Virus record (IMG/VR): IMGVR_UViG_3300042691_033602
Location: 1-23,114 of that record
Reading direction: 5' to 3' (one strand)
DNA from: a virus
DNA length: 23,114 nucleotides
The notes under the pieces are model-generated. The model searched no databases, had not been told where the DNA came from, and saw nothing but the letters and a program-made list of their open reading frames with translations. The translations under genes and the position numbers were made by a program. The first letter of the stretch is position 1. Every line of letters begins with the position of its first letter. Shown piece after piece: positions 12,064 to 23,114 of the stretch.

Positions 12064-13023
12064 ATGTCCAAGACACAACAGAGCAGCCTGCTCACAGACC
12101 AGGTTGCATTTGACAGGATTGCGTACTTCGCACTCCGCAGCGAACTTTTGTTCGACGCGGTTGCAGACGTGATGCCAGTCGCACAAGCAATGCCAGGATC
12201 ATCGGTGAAGTTCACCATTTTCAATGACCTGAGCGAGAAGACCAGCACCTTGACTGAGGACACCGACGTGACCCCAGTTGTCATGGGTGACAGCCAAGTT
12301 GAAGTGACGTTGGATGAGTACGGCAATGCCGTGAACACCACCGCCAAGTTGCGTGGCACGTCGTTCCTTGACGTGGATGCGGCAGCCGCAAACCTCGTTG
12401 GTTACAACGCCGGTATCAGCATCGACGGAGTTATCCGTGACGTGCTTTCGGCTGGCACCAACGTGATCTACGGCGGTGGCGGAACCACCACCCCAACTGC
12501 TCGCAACAACATTGCGGCAGCAGACATCATCGAGGCAAACGACGTTCGCAAGATTGTCGCCGCCCTCCGCAAGGCCAACGCCGTTTCGTTCAACGGCATG
12601 TACATGGGTTACATTCACCCAGACGTGTCCTACGACCTTCGCCGTGAAACCGGTGTCGCGTCGTGGCGTGACCCGCACGTGTACAGCGACCCAGCCGGTA
12701 TCTACAACGGCGAAATCGGAGCCTTCGAAGGTGTGCGTTTCATTGAGACGCCACGTGCGAAGATTTTCGAGAACGCCTCCAACGGCTCAGGCTCGACGGG
12801 CACCATTGACGCGTACTGCACCCACATCTGTGGACGTCAGGCACTCGCCAAGGCCCACTCGATCGTGGATGGCAACGGCGCGTTCCCACGCGTTGTGCGC
12901 GGTCCAGTGGTCGACGTGCTCCAGCGCTTCCAGCCAGTCGGCTGGTACTGGCTCGGCGGTTACGCACGATTCCGCGAGGCTTCACTGCGTCGCATTGAGT
13001 CGGCGTCCTCGCTCGGCGCGTAA
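12064..13023 (+). CDS. Major capsid protein, N4-gp56 family
   Basis: A 319-residue protein matching the N4-gp56 family of HK97-fold major capsid proteins, which form the icosahedral shell. Supporting segments are the N-terminal LLTDQVAFDRIAYFALRSEL, the helical EANDVRKIVAALRKAN, and the run YMGYIHPDVSYDLRRETGVA, followed by IYNGEIGAFEGVRFIETPRA, a combination typical of the family. It lies downstream of the scaffold and upstream of a strong terminator, so its transcript is a short, separately controlled unit. A ribosome site (AGGA) is close to the ATG with more purines further up. Codon use is C-rich and even, as expected for a highly expressed gene. The residues around 250-262 contain two Cys (DAYCTHICGR), which is unremarkable. 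Confidence 0.9.
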   Translation: MSKTQQSSLLTDQVAFDRIAYFALRSELLFDAVADVMPVAQAMPGSSVKFTIFNDLSEKTSTLTEDTDVTPVVMGDSQVEVTLDEYGNAVNTTAKLRGTSFLDVDAAAANLVGYNAGISIDGVIRDVLSAGTNVIYGGGGTTTPTARNNIAAADIIEANDVRKIVAALRKANAVSFNGMYMGYIHPDVSYDLRRETGVASWRDPHVYSDPAGIYNGEIGAFEGVRFIETPRAKIFENASNGSGSTGTIDAYCTHICGRQALAKAHSIVDGNGAFPRVVRGPVVDVLQRFQPVGWYWLGGYARFREASLRRIESASSLGA

Positions 13024-13042
13024 CTGAACTAACCAGTTCAGT
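13023..13042 (+). other. Hairpin at the end of the capsid gene
   Basis: A perfect 7-bp inverted repeat, ACTGAAC and GTTCAGT, with a 6-nt loop begins on the last base of the capsid stop codon. It lies 10 nt before the terminator stem and has no U-tract of its own. It may protect the capsid messenger's 3' end or add to termination. Confidence 0.45.
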
Positions 13043-13052
13043 CAACGATTGT

Positions 13053-13101
13053 GAGGGGTGGTTCGACGTTCCCCTGGTCGGCCACCCCTCCTTCGTTTTT
13101 T
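13053..13101 (+). terminator. Rho-independent terminator after the capsid gene
   Basis: A perfect 9-bp stem, GAGGGGTGG (13053-13061) and CCACCCCTC (13082-13090), is extended after a small internal loop by CGAC/GTCG (13064-13067 and 13077-13080). It is followed by CTTCG and six T residues (13096-13101). The stem is GC-rich and stable; the 5-nt gap before the T-run is slightly long. With the promoter at 11478 it brackets scaffold and capsid as one transcription unit. Genes downstream then need readthrough or their own promoter. Confidence 0.8.
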
Positions 13102-13128: not shown

Positions 13129-13491
13129 ATGTCGATTTCTAACTACGCAGAGAACAAACTGCTCGATACCCTTCGCGCTCAATCGTTCTCGGTGAGCAAC
13201 GTCTACGTGAAGCTGCACACCGGTGACCCTGGCGAAGCGGGCACGAGCAACGCAGCCACAGAGACAACCCGTGAGGAAGTCACGTTCTCTGCTGCATCGT
13301 CTGGTTCGATGGCGTCGTCTGCGACCGTTGAGTGGACGAATGTTTCCACCACGGAAACCTATTCGCATTTTTCGCTGTGGGATAACTCCACTGCTGGTAA
13401 CTGTTTGTGGACTGGCGCGTTGTCGTCGTCTGCTGCGGTGACTGCTGGTGACACTTTTCAGATCACTTCGCTGACGCTGACATTGGATTGA
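13129..13491 (+). CDS. Small virion surface/tail-type structural protein
   Basis: A 120-residue protein rich in Ser, Thr and Ala. The N-terminal helix (SNYAENKLLDTL) is followed by VYVKLHTGDPGEAGTSNAAT and then beta-strand-like segments including VEWTNVSTTETYSHFSLWD. This combination occurs in a family of small structural proteins in many tailed phages, annotated variously as tail-fibre or decoration proteins; I cannot decide which applies. Position just after the capsid gene would suit a capsid decoration or head-fibre protein. The ATG at 13129 has GAGG at 13119-13122. It follows the terminator, so expression depends on readthrough or a weak local promoter. Confidence 0.75.
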   Translation: MSISNYAENKLLDTLRAQSFSVSNVYVKLHTGDPGEAGTSNAATETTREEVTFSAASSGSMASSATVEWTNVSTTETYSHFSLWDNSTAGNCLWTGALSSSAAVTAGDTFQITSLTLTLD

Positions 13492-14875: not shown

Positions 14876-15109
14876 ATGAAACACGCAGAAACACACCCAA
14901 CACTTGACGTTGAAGGCTGTTTTGCTTGCCGTATCAGCCATGTGCGCATGTCCGGTGTTGCGATGCCGACACGCCACAACGTCCAACATTTGAACACCAA
15001 AGAGAAACAGCTTGACAAAGACTTGGATGCCTACAAACGCATCCGTAAAACGGGTGGGCAACCAACGAAGATTGACGGGTCAGCCAAACTAGAGAAGATC
15101 GCGGATTGA
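14876..15109 (+). CDS. Small CxxC protein, function unknown
   Basis: A 77-residue protein starting at ATG 14876 with GGGG just upstream. The N-terminal part, HPTLDVEGCFACRISHVRMS, has a single CxxC with nearby His residues, which could bind zinc or be half of a zinc site. The C-terminal part is Lys/Asp-rich and helical (KQLDKDLDAYKRIRKTGGQP), ending IDGSAKLEKIAD. Similar small GCF-C proteins with this helix occur in phages of Actinobacteria to my recollection, always without known function. It overlaps the glycosyltransferase by TTGA, so the two are translationally coupled. Confidence 0.75.
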   Translation: MKHAETHPTLDVEGCFACRISHVRMSGVAMPTRHNVQHLNTKEKQLDKDLDAYKRIRKTGGQPTKIDGSAKLEKIAD

Positions 15110-16209
15110 ATCACCAATCTTGGTTGGGGTATCCGCACCCGCGTTACGGGTACGGTGCGATGTTCAAAGGGTTCATGGACCATGTGCCCAAGGATGTGAC
15201 GTTGCACGAACATGCGAGCGTCATGGTGAACATGATGCAGCCATACCAAATCAAAACGTTCTACAAGAACCAGTGGCGAGCCTGTTTTACGATGTGGGAA
15301 TCCACCCAACTCAACCAACGGTTCATTGACTGGATGAACGTCTACGACCAAATCATCGTCCCTTGCGACCATAACGTTGAGTTGTTTTCTCGGCATCACA
15401 AGAATGTGCATAAGGTTCCGTTGGGTGTGGACACGAAGATTTGGAAACCTAAACAGCGACCAGCGAACCCGAGGTTCAGGTTTCATGCTGGCGGGTCACA
15501 GTGGTTGCGTAAAGGGTTGGACATCGTGTTGGAGGCGTTCAAGTTGGCGGACATTGACGCCGAACTCCACCTCAAACCCAACCCTGAAGCACACGGCGTA
15601 CCTGACCTCAAGTTGCCGAACAACGTCTTTATGCACCGAGGCTGGTTCACCGACCAAGAAACCATCGGCTACTTCCATCAAGCCGACTGCTACATCGCCG
15701 TCACAAGAGGCGAGGGTTTCGGGTTGATGCCGTTGCAGGCGATGGCGTGCGGTATCCCAACGATTCTCAATGACTCCTCGGGACAGAAAGGTTTCGCTCA
15801 TCTCGCCCCATTCGTTCTGGGCCACAAGCCGTCACCGTCGATCTATGGTGGCGACTGGGATGAAACCGACCCACGAGAGTTGGCGGAGGCGATGCGCGAA
15901 ATGTACGCCAACCACGACACCCATCTGGCGTGGGCGAAAGCCAAACTGCCCGAGGTTCGCAAATGGTCCTGGACATCGGCTGCCAGACAGCTCGCAGACA
16001 CCCTCCCCGCAGGCACCCTGCTCACCGACCCCACAACCGAAACGGCTACCCTCTGGCATAACGTCACCTTGAAACGCAGCCTCCAATGCGACATCGCCGG
16101 CAAGACCTACAGGTTTGTGAGAGGGGAGCCATTGCGGGTACCTGAAGGGGTGCTTGACGTGCTGCTCGCATCAGGTTATGTTGATGCATATACAGTGGAG
16201 GTACGATGA
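15106..16209 (+). CDS. Glycosyltransferase, GT-B fold (GT4-like), with extra C-terminal module
   Basis: A 367-residue GT4-like glycosyltransferase, expected to move a sugar from a nucleotide donor to an acceptor in the cytoplasm. The N-terminal WLGYPHPRYGYG resembles the opening loop of such enzymes, which supports the TTG start at 15106. HAGGSQWLRKGLDIVLEAF (R135, K136) and TRGEGFGLMPLQAMACGIPT (from residue 200) match the donor-binding site. The usual E-x7-E reads E203-x7-Q211 here, so the second Glu is replaced by Gln. Residues from about 302 form an extra domain, ending VPEGVLDVLLASGYVDAY, not part of the standard enzyme. It lies among virion genes, not among DNA-modification genes, so glycosylation of virion proteins is the likelier role; glycosylation of DNA or host targets is possible. 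It overlaps the next gene by ATGA. Confidence 0.85.
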   Translation: MNHQSWLGYPHPRYGYGAMFKGFMDHVPKDVTLHEHASVMVNMMQPYQIKTFYKNQWRACFTMWESTQLNQRFIDWMNVYDQIIVPCDHNVELFSRHHKNVHKVPLGVDTKIWKPKQRPANPRFRFHAGGSQWLRKGLDIVLEAFKLADIDAELHLKPNPEAHGVPDLKLPNNVFMHRGWFTDQETIGYFHQADCYIAVTRGEGFGLMPLQAMACGIPTILNDSSGQKGFAHLAPFVLGHKPSPSIYGGDWDETDPRELAEAMREMYANHDTHLAWAKAKLPEVRKWSWTSAARQLADTLPAGTLLTDPTTETATLWHNVTLKRSLQCDIAGKTYRFVRGEPLRVPEGVLDVLLASGYVDAYTVEVR

Positions 16210-18050: not shown

Positions 18051-19904
18051 ATGGCTACGCTGACGCGTTTCAAAGACGCTTTCAAACCTGCGTCAAGTTT
18101 CTACACCGGTACGGGTGCGACACAGCTCGTTCCTGATGTGTTCCCTATTGCGATCAACGGTCGCCCGTACATGTTGGATATGAAGGCGAATGAGTTTAGT
18201 CGCCAGTTTGATGCGCGTGTTCGTGATTCGGTTGACCAGTCAACGGAACCTGGCGAGTCGGCGTTGAACCCGCAGGGGTTGTGGCGTCGTTCGCAGTCAT
18301 CGTGGCATTACGGTGCAGGGCAACAGTATTCGGATACGGCTGACGCTGAGGCGTACAGGTTCTATACAAGCAAGGGTGTGGACCCGTGGACGAAGGGCAG
18401 GCTTAGCCTGTTGAAGGATACGACGAACGTGTACCCAACTTCGAATACGAATCTGTATGCGGTGACTGCTGATGGTCGCCTCTATGGAACTGACGGACAG
18501 ACCGTTAGATACACCAGTGATTTCGTGACGGTCACAACGGTGACAGGTACCCAGGCATCAAACTTGTATTCGATTACGTCTGACGGCTACAACGTGTTCT
18601 ACTCGTACGCCAACGGCGACATCGACCAGACGAACGCTGGCATCTCTACTTCGTCGGCGTACATCACTGGTATTGAGGCTGGCGTGTTGTCGTATGTGCG
18701 AGGCCGTCTCATGGTCGCTGGGCAGGGTACCGATAAGCGCAAGATTTGGAACATCACCACCGCGGCAGGTTCATCAGCGAACAACCCGACTGCGCTCTAC
18801 ACGCATCCGAACACGAACTGGACGTGGGTCGGTTTTGCTGCTGGACAAACCCACATCTATGCCGCAGGCTACGCAGGCAATACGAGCATTATCTACAAGA
18901 CGCAAATCCAAGCCGATGGCACAGCACTTGCCATCCCAACCGCAGCCGCCGAACTGCCCCTTGGAGAAATCGTCCAATCCATCTACGGCTACCTCGGCTA
19001 CGTCATCATTGGTACGACCACAGGATTCCGTTTCTGCTCCACAGACACCGACGGCAACCTCACCGTCGGACCACTCGTACAAACAGGTGCAGCAGTCGGA
19101 GCGATGGCAGGCATCGGTCAATACGTCTACTTCTCATGGTCCAACTTTGACTCAACCTCCACAGGCATCGGACGCATGGACATCTCCGTATTCATCTCCC
19201 CAAACCAGCCGGCATACGCAACCGATTTGATGGCTACCGCACAAGGTACGGTGCAGTCAATCCACGAGTTCCAAAACAAGCCACTCTTCACCGTCTCAGG
19301 TGTCGGCGTGTTCACACCCCACGCCACCAACCTGGTCGCCTCCGGCTATCTACGATCAGGTATCTACCGTTGGGGTGTACCGGACGCCAAGTTCATCCCC
19401 AAACTCGACTTGCGTTGCTTGCCGTTGAAAGGTTCGGTCACCATGTCGGTGGCATCAGACGGCGGAGACTTCTTTGACTTCGCCACCCTGACTACGGCGA
19501 ATGTGAAGGAAAAGACGTTTGACGGGTTGGAAGACAAGGTGTTCGAAGCCGAAATCAAAGTGACCCTCAACCGTGACGCCGTAACCAGCACCGGTCCAAC
19601 CCTTACCCGTTGGATGGCTCGCGCCTATGCCGCCCCGCTACGATCCCAAATCTTCTCCGTGCCCCTCATCATGCACCACAAGCTGTCTATCAACGGACGG
19701 GAATACTGGCAGGATGTGGACCGTGAACTCGGCTATTTGCGTGACTTGGTGGAGAACCCTCGGGTGGTGACCTATCAGGAGAACGAAGAGACGTTTGCGG
19801 TGGTGGTTGAGAATGTGCAGATGCGGATAGCCCAGTTGGTGAACGCCCATCGGACGAACGATTTTGAGGGGACGGCTATTGTGGTTATGCGTAGTGTAAG
19901 ATGA
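18051..19904 (+). CDS. Candidate tail nozzle protein, beta-propeller-like
   Basis: A 617-residue, strand-rich protein with recurrent blade-like motifs: NLYAVTADGRLYGTDGQTV, NLYSITSDGYNVFYSYANGD, HIYAAGYAGNTSIIYKTQI and GYLGYVIIGTTTGFRFCSTD. These WD/PQQ-like repetitions, the length, and the position after the adaptor suit the nozzle at the tip of short tails (T7 gp12 and P22 gp10 are propellers). The C-terminal region (residues about 420-617) is a separate beta domain that could form the platform. The ATG at 18051 follows the previous stop by 3 nt. Between about 18840 and 19420 codons shift towards C-ending, unlike the flanks. I am fairly sure it is a tail protein and less sure that it is the nozzle rather than a tail spike. 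Confidence 0.7.
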   Translation: MATLTRFKDAFKPASSFYTGTGATQLVPDVFPIAINGRPYMLDMKANEFSRQFDARVRDSVDQSTEPGESALNPQGLWRRSQSSWHYGAGQQYSDTADAEAYRFYTSKGVDPWTKGRLSLLKDTTNVYPTSNTNLYAVTADGRLYGTDGQTVRYTSDFVTVTTVTGTQASNLYSITSDGYNVFYSYANGDIDQTNAGISTSSAYITGIEAGVLSYVRGRLMVAGQGTDKRKIWNITTAAGSSANNPTALYTHPNTNWTWVGFAAGQTHIYAAGYAGNTSIIYKTQIQADGTALAIPTAAAELPLGEIVQSIYGYLGYVIIGTTTGFRFCSTDTDGNLTVGPLVQTGAAVGAMAGIGQYVYFSWSNFDSTSTGIGRMDISVFISPNQPAYATDLMATAQGTVQSIHEFQNKPLFTVSGVGVFTPHATNLVASGYLRSGIYRWGVPDAKFIPKLDLRCLPLKGSVTMSVASDGGDFFDFATLTTANVKEKTFDGLEDKVFEAEIKVTLNRDAVTSTGPTLTRWMARAYAAPLRSQIFSVPLIMHHKLSINGREYWQDVDRELGYLRDLVENPRVVTYQENEETFAVVVENVQMRIAQLVNAHRTNDFEGTAIVVMRSVR

Positions 19905-19911
19905 TGAGCCG

Positions 19912-20469
19912 ATGGCAGCAGTAACTCGTAGACAGTACAAGGGCGCAGCGGCGCAGACGACGATCACGAACGCTTTGGCGTCTGGTGACACGTCGGCTAC
20001 GTTGGCGGCGACGACTGGTTGGCCTTCAACGGCTGGTGTTCCGTTCTTTGTTGTTATTAGTCCTGGGACTGCTTCTGAGGAGAAGTGTCGAGCCACGATT
20101 TCTGGTTCTGTGTTGACGTTGACTCGCGCACAGGACGATACGACTGCTCAGACTCATGCGTCGGGTGCGACAATCTATCCGGTGTTCACGGCGGATGATG
20201 CGGATGAGGCGAATCAGTTCACCTCAACGATGACGGCTCGTGGTGATTTGTTGACGATGAACTCGTCGGTGGACCCGACGCGTTTGGCTCTTGGCGCCAA
20301 GGGTGGCGTGTTGGCGTCGAACGGTTCTGATCCTGCGTGGTTGGCTGTTGGTGCGAATAATACTGTGTTGACGGCTGATTCGGCTGAGGTGACTGGGTTG
20401 AAGTGGGCGACGGCTCTTTCTTCTGGTGAGGATGACCAGATTGTTTTAGCAGTTCAGGTGTATAGTTAG
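19912..20469 (+). CDS. Tail fibre or virion structural protein
   Basis: A 185-residue protein rich in Ala, Thr and Ser. The N-terminal 110 residues contain GWPSTAGVPFFVVISPGTAS, RAQDDTTAQTHASGATIYPV and FTADDADEANQF, a set that recurs in short fibre-type proteins of marine and freshwater phages. The remainder, LALGAKGGVLASNGSDPAWL, then VGANNTVLTADSA, is a common fibre linker motif. These proteins are thought to build the fibre shaft or its attachment point. The ATG at 19912 lies 7 nt after the preceding stop. Confidence 0.8.
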   Translation: MAAVTRRQYKGAAAQTTITNALASGDTSATLAATTGWPSTAGVPFFVVISPGTASEEKCRATISGSVLTLTRAQDDTTAQTHASGATIYPVFTADDADEANQFTSTMTARGDLLTMNSSVDPTRLALGAKGGVLASNGSDPAWLAVGANNTVLTADSAEVTGLKWATALSSGEDDQIVLAVQVYS

Positions 20470-20477
20470 GAGTCATT

Positions 20478-20846
20478 ATGGCAACGTATAGCAAATTGGC
20501 TTTGCAGCCTGCAGGTACTACTGGTACTGGATTGGGTATCAAGGTTGCTGCGACGAGCGGCACTGGTACTGCGATTCATACTGCGTCGTCTACTGCTGCA
20601 ACGATTGACGAAATCTGGTTGTATGCGGTGAACACTTCTGCTTCGTCGGTGAAGTTGACTGTTCAGTGGGGTGGTACGACTGCTGTTGACAACGAGATCG
20701 AGCTGACGGTGTTGCCGGAGGCTGGTCTTGTGACGGTTGTTCCTGGTTTGTTGTTGCAGGGTAATGCGACTGCTCGTGTTGTGCGTGCGTTTGCTGGTAC
20801 TGCTGATGTTGTTGTGCTGTACGGTTTTGTGAACCGTATCGCTTAG
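20478..20846 (+). CDS. Small beta-rich virion protein, tail-fibre-associated
   Basis: A 122-residue protein predicted to be almost all beta strand. The segment IDEIWLYAVNTSASSVKLTV, then QWGGTTAVDNEIELTVLPEA and VVPGLLLQG, matches a small virion protein family common in environmental phages, whose exact place in the particle is not known to me. Ribosome site GGAG lies upstream of ATG 20478. Codons here are strongly T- and G-ending, as in the gene before and unlike the capsid gene. Confidence 0.75.
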   Translation: MATYSKLALQPAGTTGTGLGIKVAATSGTGTAIHTASSTAATIDEIWLYAVNTSASSVKLTVQWGGTTAVDNEIELTVLPEAGLVTVVPGLLLQGNATARVVRAFAGTADVVVLYGFVNRIA

Positions 20847-20855
20847 GGGTAGCGG

Positions 20856-21686
20856 ATGGGCACGGCTCGCCGTCAACTTGGGTATGTGTCGTCGCAGTCG
20901 TCTCAGGTTGTGCCGACGATGGCTTTCCTGAGTGTTGAATATTTGCTTGTCGGCGGCGGTGCAGGCGCTGGCACTGGTGCAACGTCAGTTGACGGTGGCG
21001 GTGGCGGTGGCGCTGGCGGCTTTGTAACAGGCACAGGCATCATCGGCAAGACCACCTACACAGTCAAGGTTGGTGCTGGCGGAGCGTCATACCTTTCAGG
21101 CAGTGCTTCCGCCTTTCTAAATGGCGCCAACGGTGGTGGTGCTGGAGGCAGTCGTGATGGGGGCGGACAACCGGGTGCTTCTGGCGGCGGTCGTGGTGGA
21201 GACAACATCGGCGCAGCGGCTACAGGTATTTCTGGAGAAGGCAATAATGGCGGCCTTTCTACTGGTAACGCAGGCGGCGGCGGTGGCGGTGCTGGCTCTG
21301 TCGGCGGTGATGCCTCTGGTGGCACTGGTGGTGCTGGCGGTAGTGCTTCAAGCAATAGTTACACAGGCAGTGCTATTTCGTACTCTGGCGGTGGCGGCGG
21401 AGGAGGTTCCTCTGCTGGCGGTACAGGCGGAACCAATGCTGGTAACGGTGCTACTGGAGGTACTGCTGGCGGTAATGGAACAGCAAACCGTGGAGGCGGT
21501 GGTGGTGGTACAGCAACAGGTACACCCGGCAATGGCGGTTCTGGTCGCGTCGTCGTGCGTTGGCTCACCGCAACAGCAACAGGACTAGGTCTTACCTTCT
21601 CAACGACAGGCACGACAACGAACGGAACTGACGGTTCCTACACTTGGTATGCGTGGGATTCCACAGGAACTTTGGTGGTTTCGTAA
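20856..21686 (+). CDS. Gly-rich tail adhesin, copy 1
   Basis: A 276-residue protein with three regions. Residues 1-32 begin MGTARRQLGYVSSQSSQVVP, with an LGYVSSQ peptide shared with copy 2. Residues about 33-230 are more than one third Gly in short GG-rich runs separated by a few residues, with YTVKVGAGGA near the start. The end, GSGRVVVRWLTATATGLGLT, then SYTWYAWDSTGTLVVS, is a strand-rich cap. Poly-Gly tracts of this kind form a sandwich of polyglycine-II helices in the Salmonella phage S16 adhesin gp38; the analogy suggests receptor binding at the fibre tip. Exact specificity cannot be read. The stop overlaps the next start (TAATG). Confidence 0.8.
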   Translation: MGTARRQLGYVSSQSSQVVPTMAFLSVEYLLVGGGAGAGTGATSVDGGGGGGAGGFVTGTGIIGKTTYTVKVGAGGASYLSGSASAFLNGANGGGAGGSRDGGGQPGASGGGRGGDNIGAAATGISGEGNNGGLSTGNAGGGGGGAGSVGGDASGGTGGAGGSASSNSYTGSAISYSGGGGGGGSSAGGTGGTNAGNGATGGTAGGNGTANRGGGGGGTATGTPGNGGSGRVVVRWLTATATGLGLTFSTTGTTTNGTDGSYTWYAWDSTGTLVVS

Positions 21687-21922
21687 TGGCACATTTCGCA
21701 AAAGTAGAAAACGGTGTCGTTCGAGAAGTTATCGTCGTCGGCAACGGTGACGCCCCAACAGAAGCCGCAGGCAAAGCGTTCATCGCAAGCATCGGTCTTG
21801 CTGGCGAATGGGTGCAAACGTCGTACAACGGTAACCCTGTTGAGGGTGCGGACCGTGGGAAGTTTGCTGGTATTGGTGATGTGTGGGATGGGTCTAAGTT
21901 TGTTAGTGAGGTAGCAGAGTGA
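21686..21922 (+). CDS. Small tail-fibre partner protein, copy 1
   Basis: A 78-residue protein. I choose ATG 21686, which overlaps the adhesin stop by one base; an earlier in-frame start at 21644 lies inside the adhesin gene and is unlikely. It reads MAHFAKVENGVVREVIVVGN, then AFIASIGLAGEWVQTSYNGN and GKFAGIGDVWDGSKF. This is a widespread small phage protein, often beside tail fibres in cyanophages and other aquatic phages, with no settled function; a fibre cap, chaperone or minor structural part is possible. A divergent second copy follows the next adhesin. Confidence 0.8.
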   Translation: MAHFAKVENGVVREVIVVGNGDAPTEAAGKAFIASIGLAGEWVQTSYNGNPVEGADRGKFAGIGDVWDGSKFVSEVAE

Positions 21923-22851
21923 CGCGTTCTTATTTGGGTTATGTCTCATCGCAGACAACTAGCCTCGTTGCAGCGGCAAGTATTCCATCAACTGCCGAAT
22001 GGCTTGTTGTTGGTGGTGGTGGTGGCGGTGGTGGCTCGTCCAATTCAACTGGTGCTGGTGGCGGTGGTGGCGCAGGTGGATACAGAAACGGCGTATCGGG
22101 TGAGACTTCTGGTGGTGGTGCATCTGCTGAATCTGCAATAAGTATCACCAGTAGTGTTGTCTACACAATTACAGTTGGTGCTGGCGGTGCGGCTGGTTCT
22201 GCAACCAATAAAGGAACAGTCGGTTCTAGTAGTTCTATTTCTGGAACGGGTTTGACAACTATCACTTCAACTGGTGGCGGTGCTGGCGGCGGAACTGACT
22301 CGGGTGATGGTGATGCTGGCGGAAACGGTGGCTCTGGCGGTGGTGGTGGTACTCAGGGTGGTGCAGCGGGTACTGGCACAGCAAATCAGGGATACGGTGG
22401 TGGTGCAGGGTCGGGTACAAATAGTGGTGGTGGTGGCGGTGCTAGTGCTGTTGGTGTTGGTGGCGGTTCGACGCCAACTGGCGGAAACGGTGTTTCGTCA
22501 AGCATAACTGGTTCTGCGGTAACTCGTGCAGGTGGAGGTGGTGGTGCGTTGAATGCAACTTCAACCGCTGCTGCTGGGGGGTCGGGTGGCGGTGGCGCAG
22601 GCGGTTCAACATCAACAAGCAATATTGGAACAGCAGGAACCATCAACACAGGTGGTGGTGGTGGTGCTGGAAACAATAACGGTGTGACGTCTCCTGGATT
22701 TGCTGGTGGTGCAGGTGGTTCTGGTGTCGTAATTTTGCGTGTGCCCATTGCATCAAAATTTCCAACCACTCTGACTGGTGGTGGAGCAACGCAAACTTCG
22801 ACGCACTGGATTTTCACGTTTCTAACTTCTGGAACTATCGGATGGTCGTGA
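21919..22851 (+). CDS. Gly-rich tail adhesin, copy 2
   Basis: A 310-residue protein starting at GTG 21919 (GTGA overlap with the preceding stop). It begins MTRSYLGYVSSQTTSLVAAA, matching the N-terminal tag of copy 1. Residues about 32-280 are a Gly-rich domain with YTITVGAGGAAGSA near its start. The end GGSGVVILRVPIASKFPTTL, then HWIFTFLTSGTIGWS, is a cap typical of phage Gly-rich fibres. The Gly tracts differ in length and spacer content from copy 1, so the variable part has diverged while both ends are kept. Probable role is receptor recognition, by analogy with polyglycine-II adhesins. Confidence 0.8.
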   Translation: MTRSYLGYVSSQTTSLVAAASIPSTAEWLVVGGGGGGGGSSNSTGAGGGGGAGGYRNGVSGETSGGGASAESAISITSSVVYTITVGAGGAAGSATNKGTVGSSSSISGTGLTTITSTGGGAGGGTDSGDGDAGGNGGSGGGGGTQGGAAGTGTANQGYGGGAGSGTNSGGGGGASAVGVGGGSTPTGGNGVSSSITGSAVTRAGGGGGALNATSTAAAGGSGGGGAGGSTSTSNIGTAGTINTGGGGGAGNNNGVTSPGFAGGAGGSGVVILRVPIASKFPTTLTGGGATQTSTHWIFTFLTSGTIGWS

Positions 22852-22852
22852 C

Positions 22853-23114
22853 ATGGCTTACTTCGCAGAACTAGACAACACCAACACGGTGCTTCGTGTT
22901 ATCAGCATCAGCAACGATGTGTGCGGTGAACCGACACTTGGCTTCCCTGATACGGAGGCGGCTGGTCGTGCGTTCATTGCCAACACGTTGAAACTTGGCG
23001 GCACCTGGAAGCAAACGTCTTTCAACGCAAACTTCCGTGGCAAGTACGCTGGCATCGGTGACCTCTACGACCCAGCACTAGACATCTTCACATCACCACC
23101 TGTTGAGGATGCGC
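22853..23114 (+). CDS. Small tail-fibre partner protein, copy 2 (partial, runs off the window)
   Basis: The frame is open from ATG 22853 to the window's end, giving at least 87 residues, and the stop lies outside. It reads MAYFAELDNTNTVLRVISIS, then AFIANTLKLGGTWKQTSFNA and GKYAGIGDLYDPALDIF, clearly related to the 78-residue copy 1 (shared TEAAG, AFIA, G-W-QTS-N, GK-AGIGD). A 12-residue-longer segment lies between the first strand and TEAAG. It begins 1 nt after the stop of the second adhesin. The pair repeats the adhesin-partner order upstream. Confidence 0.8.
   Translation, partial: MAYFAELDNTNTVLRVISISNDVCGEPTLGFPDTEAAGRAFIANTLKLGGTWKQTSFNANFRGKYAGIGDLYDPALDIFTSPPVEDA

Follow-up and report, generated by a model that had tools for sequence, protein, structure and literature searches.

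The adhesin array at the end of the structural gene block

The window analysed here, 23,114 bases long, spans an entire IMG/VR record and is a genome fragment from an uncultured aquatic phage. It contains a structural gene block of a tailed phage with the terminase end, portal and capsid genes; a glycosyltransferase group 1 gene lies inside this block (15106-16209). The closest annotated relatives of P0007 include that of Dennebes, placed in Beephvirinae, and the window phage is presumably a short-tailed actinophage. A search of genome contigs for a relative, as a route to the host, found none. At the end of the block the genes follow in the order P0005, P0006, adhesin A, partner 1, adhesin B and partner 2. 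The relevant features are:

13129-13491, podophage GP4 fibre I protein (PF23140)
18051-19904, P0007; nearest annotated relatives in Streptomyces phages, 28-30% identical
19912-20469, + strand, P0005, short tail-fibre stub, 185 aa (phrog_23837, virion structural protein, E=3e-68)
20478-20846, + strand, P0006, proposed docking hub, 122 aa (phrog_30535)
20712-20735, + strand, P0006 residues 79-86 (LPEAGLVT), the patch co-varying with leader class, with the highest mutual information
20856-21686, + strand, adhesin A, 276 aa; leader, Gly-rich body and C-terminal cap
20877-20897, + strand, LGYVSSQ tag in the slot-1 leader (MGTARRQLGYVSSQSSQVVP), exact; adhesin A residues 8-14
21686-21922, + strand, partner 1, 78 aa, a small protein proposed to assist the assembly of adhesin A (phrog_7759, 5e-12; alignment A1)
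21919-22851, + strand, adhesin B, 310 aa, GTG start; leader, Gly-rich body and C-terminal cap
21934-21954, + strand, LGYVSSQ tag in the slot-2 leader (MTRSYLGYVSSQTT), exact; adhesin B residues 6-12
22853-23114, + strand, partner 2, cut by the contig end; full copy of 89 aa at L003:14828-15097

An earlier note on this DNA had described two Gly-rich adhesins that share an LGYVSSQ tag and a similar cap, each followed by a copy of a small partner. The tag is indeed exact in both proteins, the coordinates and partners were given correctly, and both caps are C-terminal, following a conserved GGSGxVxxR strand. When the leaders were shuffled, any common 6-mer appeared in just 40 of 200,000 trials. 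Glycine makes up 35% of adhesin A and 33% of adhesin B, and the sole Pfam domain in either is Gly_rich_2 (PF21722; E=2e-14 and 54.6 bits for A, E=5e-8 and 33.7 bits for B, above the curated cut-off of 24.3 bits). Stop and start codons overlap at the junctions of adhesin A, partner 1 and adhesin B (TAATG, GTGA). The description of the cassette as duplicated is misleading, because the two bodies are only ~46% identical and each is nearer to bodies of other phages; together with the synonymous differences between the tag codons, this rules out a recent tandem duplication. With tblastn, no annotated phage carrying adhesin B or a related body was found, and a search for RNA elements in the array region yielded none.

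The locus L003 comes from a 39.7-kb contig whose P0007 is 100% identical to that of the window. On the 3' side of its array (15078-16034), and in homologues, lies a conserved PA14-like, Thr-rich protein, with a weak PA14-like match below the Pfam cut-off and a long Thr/Pro/Glu-rich stretch. The L003 copy of adhesin A contains a 25-base tandem duplication (about 13012-13062) and is frame-shifted in comparison with the window copy; strand slippage, phase switching or an assembly error could each have produced the duplication.

Partners 1 and 2 are paralogous (55% identical over 70 residues). No credible Pfam match was obtained for members of the partner alignment. An AF2 model of the full L003 copy had a pLDDT of 91.8; its highest-probability PDB match was 7ypx_a (Pam3 gp25), which is not significant (E=3.6, prob 0.18), and the viral proteins related to it among predicted structures carried no functional name. 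Partner relatives with a readable upstream gene numbered 81 (best 80 loci), and at least 65 of them follow a Gly-rich body detected by profile, with three more by eye. Linkage to unrelated proteins just as often, which the earlier note had named as evidence against its reading, was thus not observed; among the exceptions some adjoin non-Gly genes, e.g. in phage DSL-LC04, where the neighbouring gene encodes a 2OG-Fe(II) oxygenase. The N-termini of the Gly-rich proteins upstream of partner relatives are mostly of other kinds, which indicates that body and partner form a module used with many anchors. The claim that each adhesin has its own partner holds in the window but not in several relatives, where two adhesins share one. 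In three contigs, a sulfotransferase gene (PF13469, 4e-15) is placed inside the exchangeable cassette, between the slot-2 adhesin and the partner (L052:10746-11411, also L032 and L274).

Leader classes and their relation to P0006

In related contigs 131 distinct genes carry the tag, 68 of slot-1 type (MATARRQLGYVSS) and 63 of slot-2 type (M(T/S)RSY(L/M)GYVSS). It is shared across the group and found on different body classes, whereas its absence from the other adhesins of the group would have spoken against the reading of the earlier note. Exact DNA patterns matched 62 stretches for the slot-1 leader and 48 for the slot-2 leader. Nearly all full-length tagged genes (115/118) are Gly-rich, and 90 are followed by partner-like sequence. 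Bodies that are not Gly-rich can have tag-like N-termini too, namely the MAYTSSQ proteins of L022, L023, L028 and L069, as can lower-Gly bodies of another kind (L010, L049, L073). Those four MAYTSSQ loci have an extra slot directly after P0006, with the constant N-terminus MAYTSSQIVQAVPTG on proteins of 149-194 aa with differing non-Gly bodies. The slot-2 adhesin at L005:6154-7083 has tandem leader motifs (MSRSYYGYVSA...NRSYLGYVSAQ), likely a recombination scar. When the GYVSS codons of slots 1 and 2 of the same genome were compared, 40 differences were synonymous and 4 nonsynonymous; the peptide is therefore under constraint and the slots are old.

The occurrence of P0006 is complementary to the length of P0005. 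P0006 was present behind 57/57 short P0005 genes and 0/5 long ones (Fisher p=1.5e-7; the five long sequences are partly related to each other). The long homologues, of which one matches the tail fibre family phrog_4492, mostly have C-terminal heads fused in cis. In L072 the P0005 homologue continues into a Gly-rich body, a partner comes next, and both leader and P0006 are missing; in L200 P0005 is fused to a non-Gly body which elsewhere forms a separate gene led by MAYTSSQ. Two body families are seen both fused to P0005 without a leader and split with one. In L074, which has no P0006, the Gly-rich gene stands separate and no leader is recognised in it. We gathered P0006 homologues with their own profile and pooled them with the earlier loci, which gave 140 distinct homologues with readable downstream DNA. 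All 140 precede a leader-bearing gene (GYVS 89, RTRS 36, GGKAIS 15), regardless of whether the upstream gene is P0005; in about half of these contexts it is another gene. Background ORFs matched the leader patterns in 0.7% (GYVS), 0 (GGKAIS) and 14% (RTRS, a loose pattern) of cases. The 104-kb contig L274, with no detectable P0007, has P0006 twice: one copy precedes an RTRS-type adhesin, the other a pair of GYVS adhesins. Among annotated phages, distant P0006 matches were found in Pseudanabaena phages only, and in Pam2 the protein after the match has no leader.

The class of the leader co-varies with a short patch of P0006. Residues 79, 80, 82 and 86 carry most of the leader-class information: hubs of the GYVS class have P80 in 88/89, A82 in 88/89 and T86 in 87/89 sequences, and the code can be summarized as [LQ]PEAGLVT with GYVS, [AT]AESGLVL with RTRS and KAENGLYL with GGKAIS. 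The association is strongest within P0006 (columns 75-90, z=16) and falls to z=6 toward the 3' end, nearer the leader gene, which is unlike plain linkage, although linkage accounts for part of it because the hub and the slot-1 leader adjoin. On a P0006 tree built without the patch columns, leader class changes 13 times (33-47 when shuffled), residue 80 changes 14 times, and the two jointly 14 times. Of the 13 independent hub/leader switches, just 3 fall on branches with support; all three are concordant, a number too small for a sign test to reach significance. The leader of the second slot, which is separated from the hub by about 1 kb including a hypervariable body, agrees with the hub in 67/67 arrays (61 P-type/GYVS, 6 A-type/RTRS); transfer of arrays as whole blocks could account for this agreement. 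The N-terminal 150 aa of P0005 show a poor association with leader class (63/1000 shuffles reached the observed value), and P0007 shows none.

Exchange of heads and partners

Median identities were calculated for GYVS-class pairs with P0007 at least 88% identical. P0005 and P0006 are 87% and 70% identical, respectively. In slot 1 the leader is 100%, the body 44% and the partner 47% identical; in slot 2 the corresponding values are 82%, 43% and 52%. DNA identity is maximal exactly at the tag (0.85-0.91) and drops to about 0.3-0.4 in the body. Sequence comparisons indicate that bodies and partners move between slots while leaders stay: the slot-2 genes of L018 and the slot-1 genes of L070 share 92% identity in both body and partner and 44% in the leader, and five cross-slot body pairs reach at least 75% identity. 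The slot-2 body is 100% identical in L032 and L052, although their P0007 proteins are 77% identical, and adhesin B is 62% identical to an L063 body with another leader class (partner 82%). Breakpoints at the tag, for which the earlier note had suggested a test, are borne out by the drop in identity and the exchange of bodies without their leaders. An ending in (S/V)EV(A/S/V/I)E marks most slot-1 partners and is missing from those of slot 2, and the window's partner 2 has its tail in common with L032 and its head with L063; the exchanged unit therefore ends inside the partner. A conserved connector, variable heads and head exchange, the marks of modular systems with multiple receptor-binding proteins (RBPs), are all found in the array.

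Two body layouts occur, with the beta cap either C-terminal, as in the window, or N-terminal (alignments A2 and A3), and L034:13651-15411 is a tandem double body. The cap profiles of both layouts pair (E=2e-6, prob 89, 16 columns). A relationship by circular permutation through tandem duplication is only suggested, since the permuted body profile scores just slightly above the unpermuted one.

Model of the array, alternatives and known systems

We propose that the array is a modular host-recognition device, and consider this reading probable. The hub P0006 would sit on the short fibre stub P0005, and the flexible N-terminal leader containing GYVSS would plug both adhesins into it; the earlier note had the tag dock to the fibre, but the best candidate for the dock is P0006, directly upstream. 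Docking may take place by strand addition, with the leader supplying an extra strand to the hub, and a weak match of P0006 to the pilin PapE (E=0.13) provides only a lead in this direction. The variable Gly-rich head would contact the host, presumably binding a receptor, and the partner, a putative chaperone, would be a small dedicated factor helping the head to fold or assemble. Heads and the main part of the partner would be exchanged between slots and phages, with breakpoints upstream at the conserved leader and downstream within the partner, at its RGKYAGIGD region or its tail. With P0006 as the apparent socket for these leaders, phages could seemingly exchange heads and keep the connector. 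That P0006 is a hitherto unrecognised socket protein, with a residue code and at least three mutually exclusive leader plugs, in a hub-plus-plug unit portable across unrelated backbones, we regard as about evenly balanced; such portability would let phages collect and swap whole heads through one short connector. The earlier idea that two bodies give one phage two host ranges is speculation.

It is rather unlikely that the tag docks directly to the stub P0005, with P0006 a passive or unrelated virion protein. The cis fusions in L072 and L200 favour this by suggesting that P0005 is where the heads end up, but leader class is tied to P0006, poorly to P0005 and not to P0007, other genes often precede P0006 and its leader-bearing gene, including in the 104-kb phage, and P0006 is gone where P0005 is long. 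The synonymous excess in the GYVSS codons between slots means that the peptide, not the DNA, is conserved, and the patch with which leader class varies lies in another protein; both findings make it very improbable that the tag is mainly a recombination anchor whose 5' DNA keeps allele exchange going and whose peptide has no docking role, even though the peak of DNA identity at the tag is what such an anchor would leave.

The Gly-rich proteins could also serve general virion decoration or adhesion instead of receptor binding, with the partners as virion subunits and not chaperones. Mycobacteriophage polyglycine domains have been suggested to contact lipids (PMC13252515), which is in line with this reading, as are the partners adjoining non-Gly genes. 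However, the adhesins stand at the end of the tail-gene block, form the most variable part of the region and have a phage tail tip and a fibre as structural neighbours, so we consider decoration unlikely. Under the preferred reading of a leader-plugged array, the connector and variable-head modularity of the earlier note are kept, while the fibre as dock and the recent duplication are given up.

Modular phage receptor-binding proteins are of a known kind, of which the array is a variant, and the practical question addressed is how several exchangeable binding proteins are attached to one tail. From sequence alone, a plug (the ~20-residue leader) and a socket (P0006 residues 79-86) in matched classes can be proposed for abundant uncultured phages; a literature search found no description of the receptor-binding system of these phages. 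If true, the model would provide a function for the P0006 family (phrog_30535) and a rule for finding adhesins by their leader.

The gp38 protein of the T2/S16 type is a Gly-rich, exchangeable tip adhesin on a separate fibre. Gp38 of S16 has been compared with the Pam3 fibre protein gp24 (PMC9608196); the adhesins gave no sequence match and no significant structural match to gp38. A PDB sequence search with the bodies, partners and hub likewise gave no significant match. The AF2 model of adhesin B (pLDDT 91.3; about 54 and no helix in leader residues 1-20) predicts a Gly-rich, jelly-roll-like head. Among PDB structures, the model lies nearest to the Bxb1 tail tip (E=1.8e-4) and Pam3 gp24 (7ypx_A; E=0.012, prob 0.96, with a Foldseek TM of only 0.32-0.38), and further, weakly, to ALK/LTK Gly-rich domains. 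The Gly-rich chains of the Bxb1 tail tip (PDB 9d93 Qa/Qb) are the best structural match of the adhesin body and belong, as is presumed for the array, to an actinophage; Bxb1 is a different phage type, and the comparison concerns the body alone (25% identity).

Pam3 gp24 is a TNF-like plus Gly-rich fibre assembled by a dedicated chaperone, gp25, which was not detected in virions (PMC9608196; PDB 7ypx). The array may resemble it in a Gly-rich beta head, with the partner as candidate for the chaperone. Gp24, however, docks via an N-terminal helical domain, whereas the adhesins have a ~20-residue leader with no helix predicted, and gp25 has a C-terminal helical trimerisation domain, whereas the partner, of ~78-89 aa, is predicted to be a single small domain. 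The branched tailspikes of Ackermannviridae provide several RBPs per virion (PMC11414711), as is proposed for the array. No gp10-like XD domain was found at the adhesin N-terminus, where the ~20-residue leader precedes PF21722. As in the array, conserved N-terminal connectors carry variable heads exchanged by recombination (PMC11414711), but the Ackermannviridae connectors are folded XD/TD domains of the spikes themselves, whereas here a short leader is paired with a separate hub bearing a class-specific patch.
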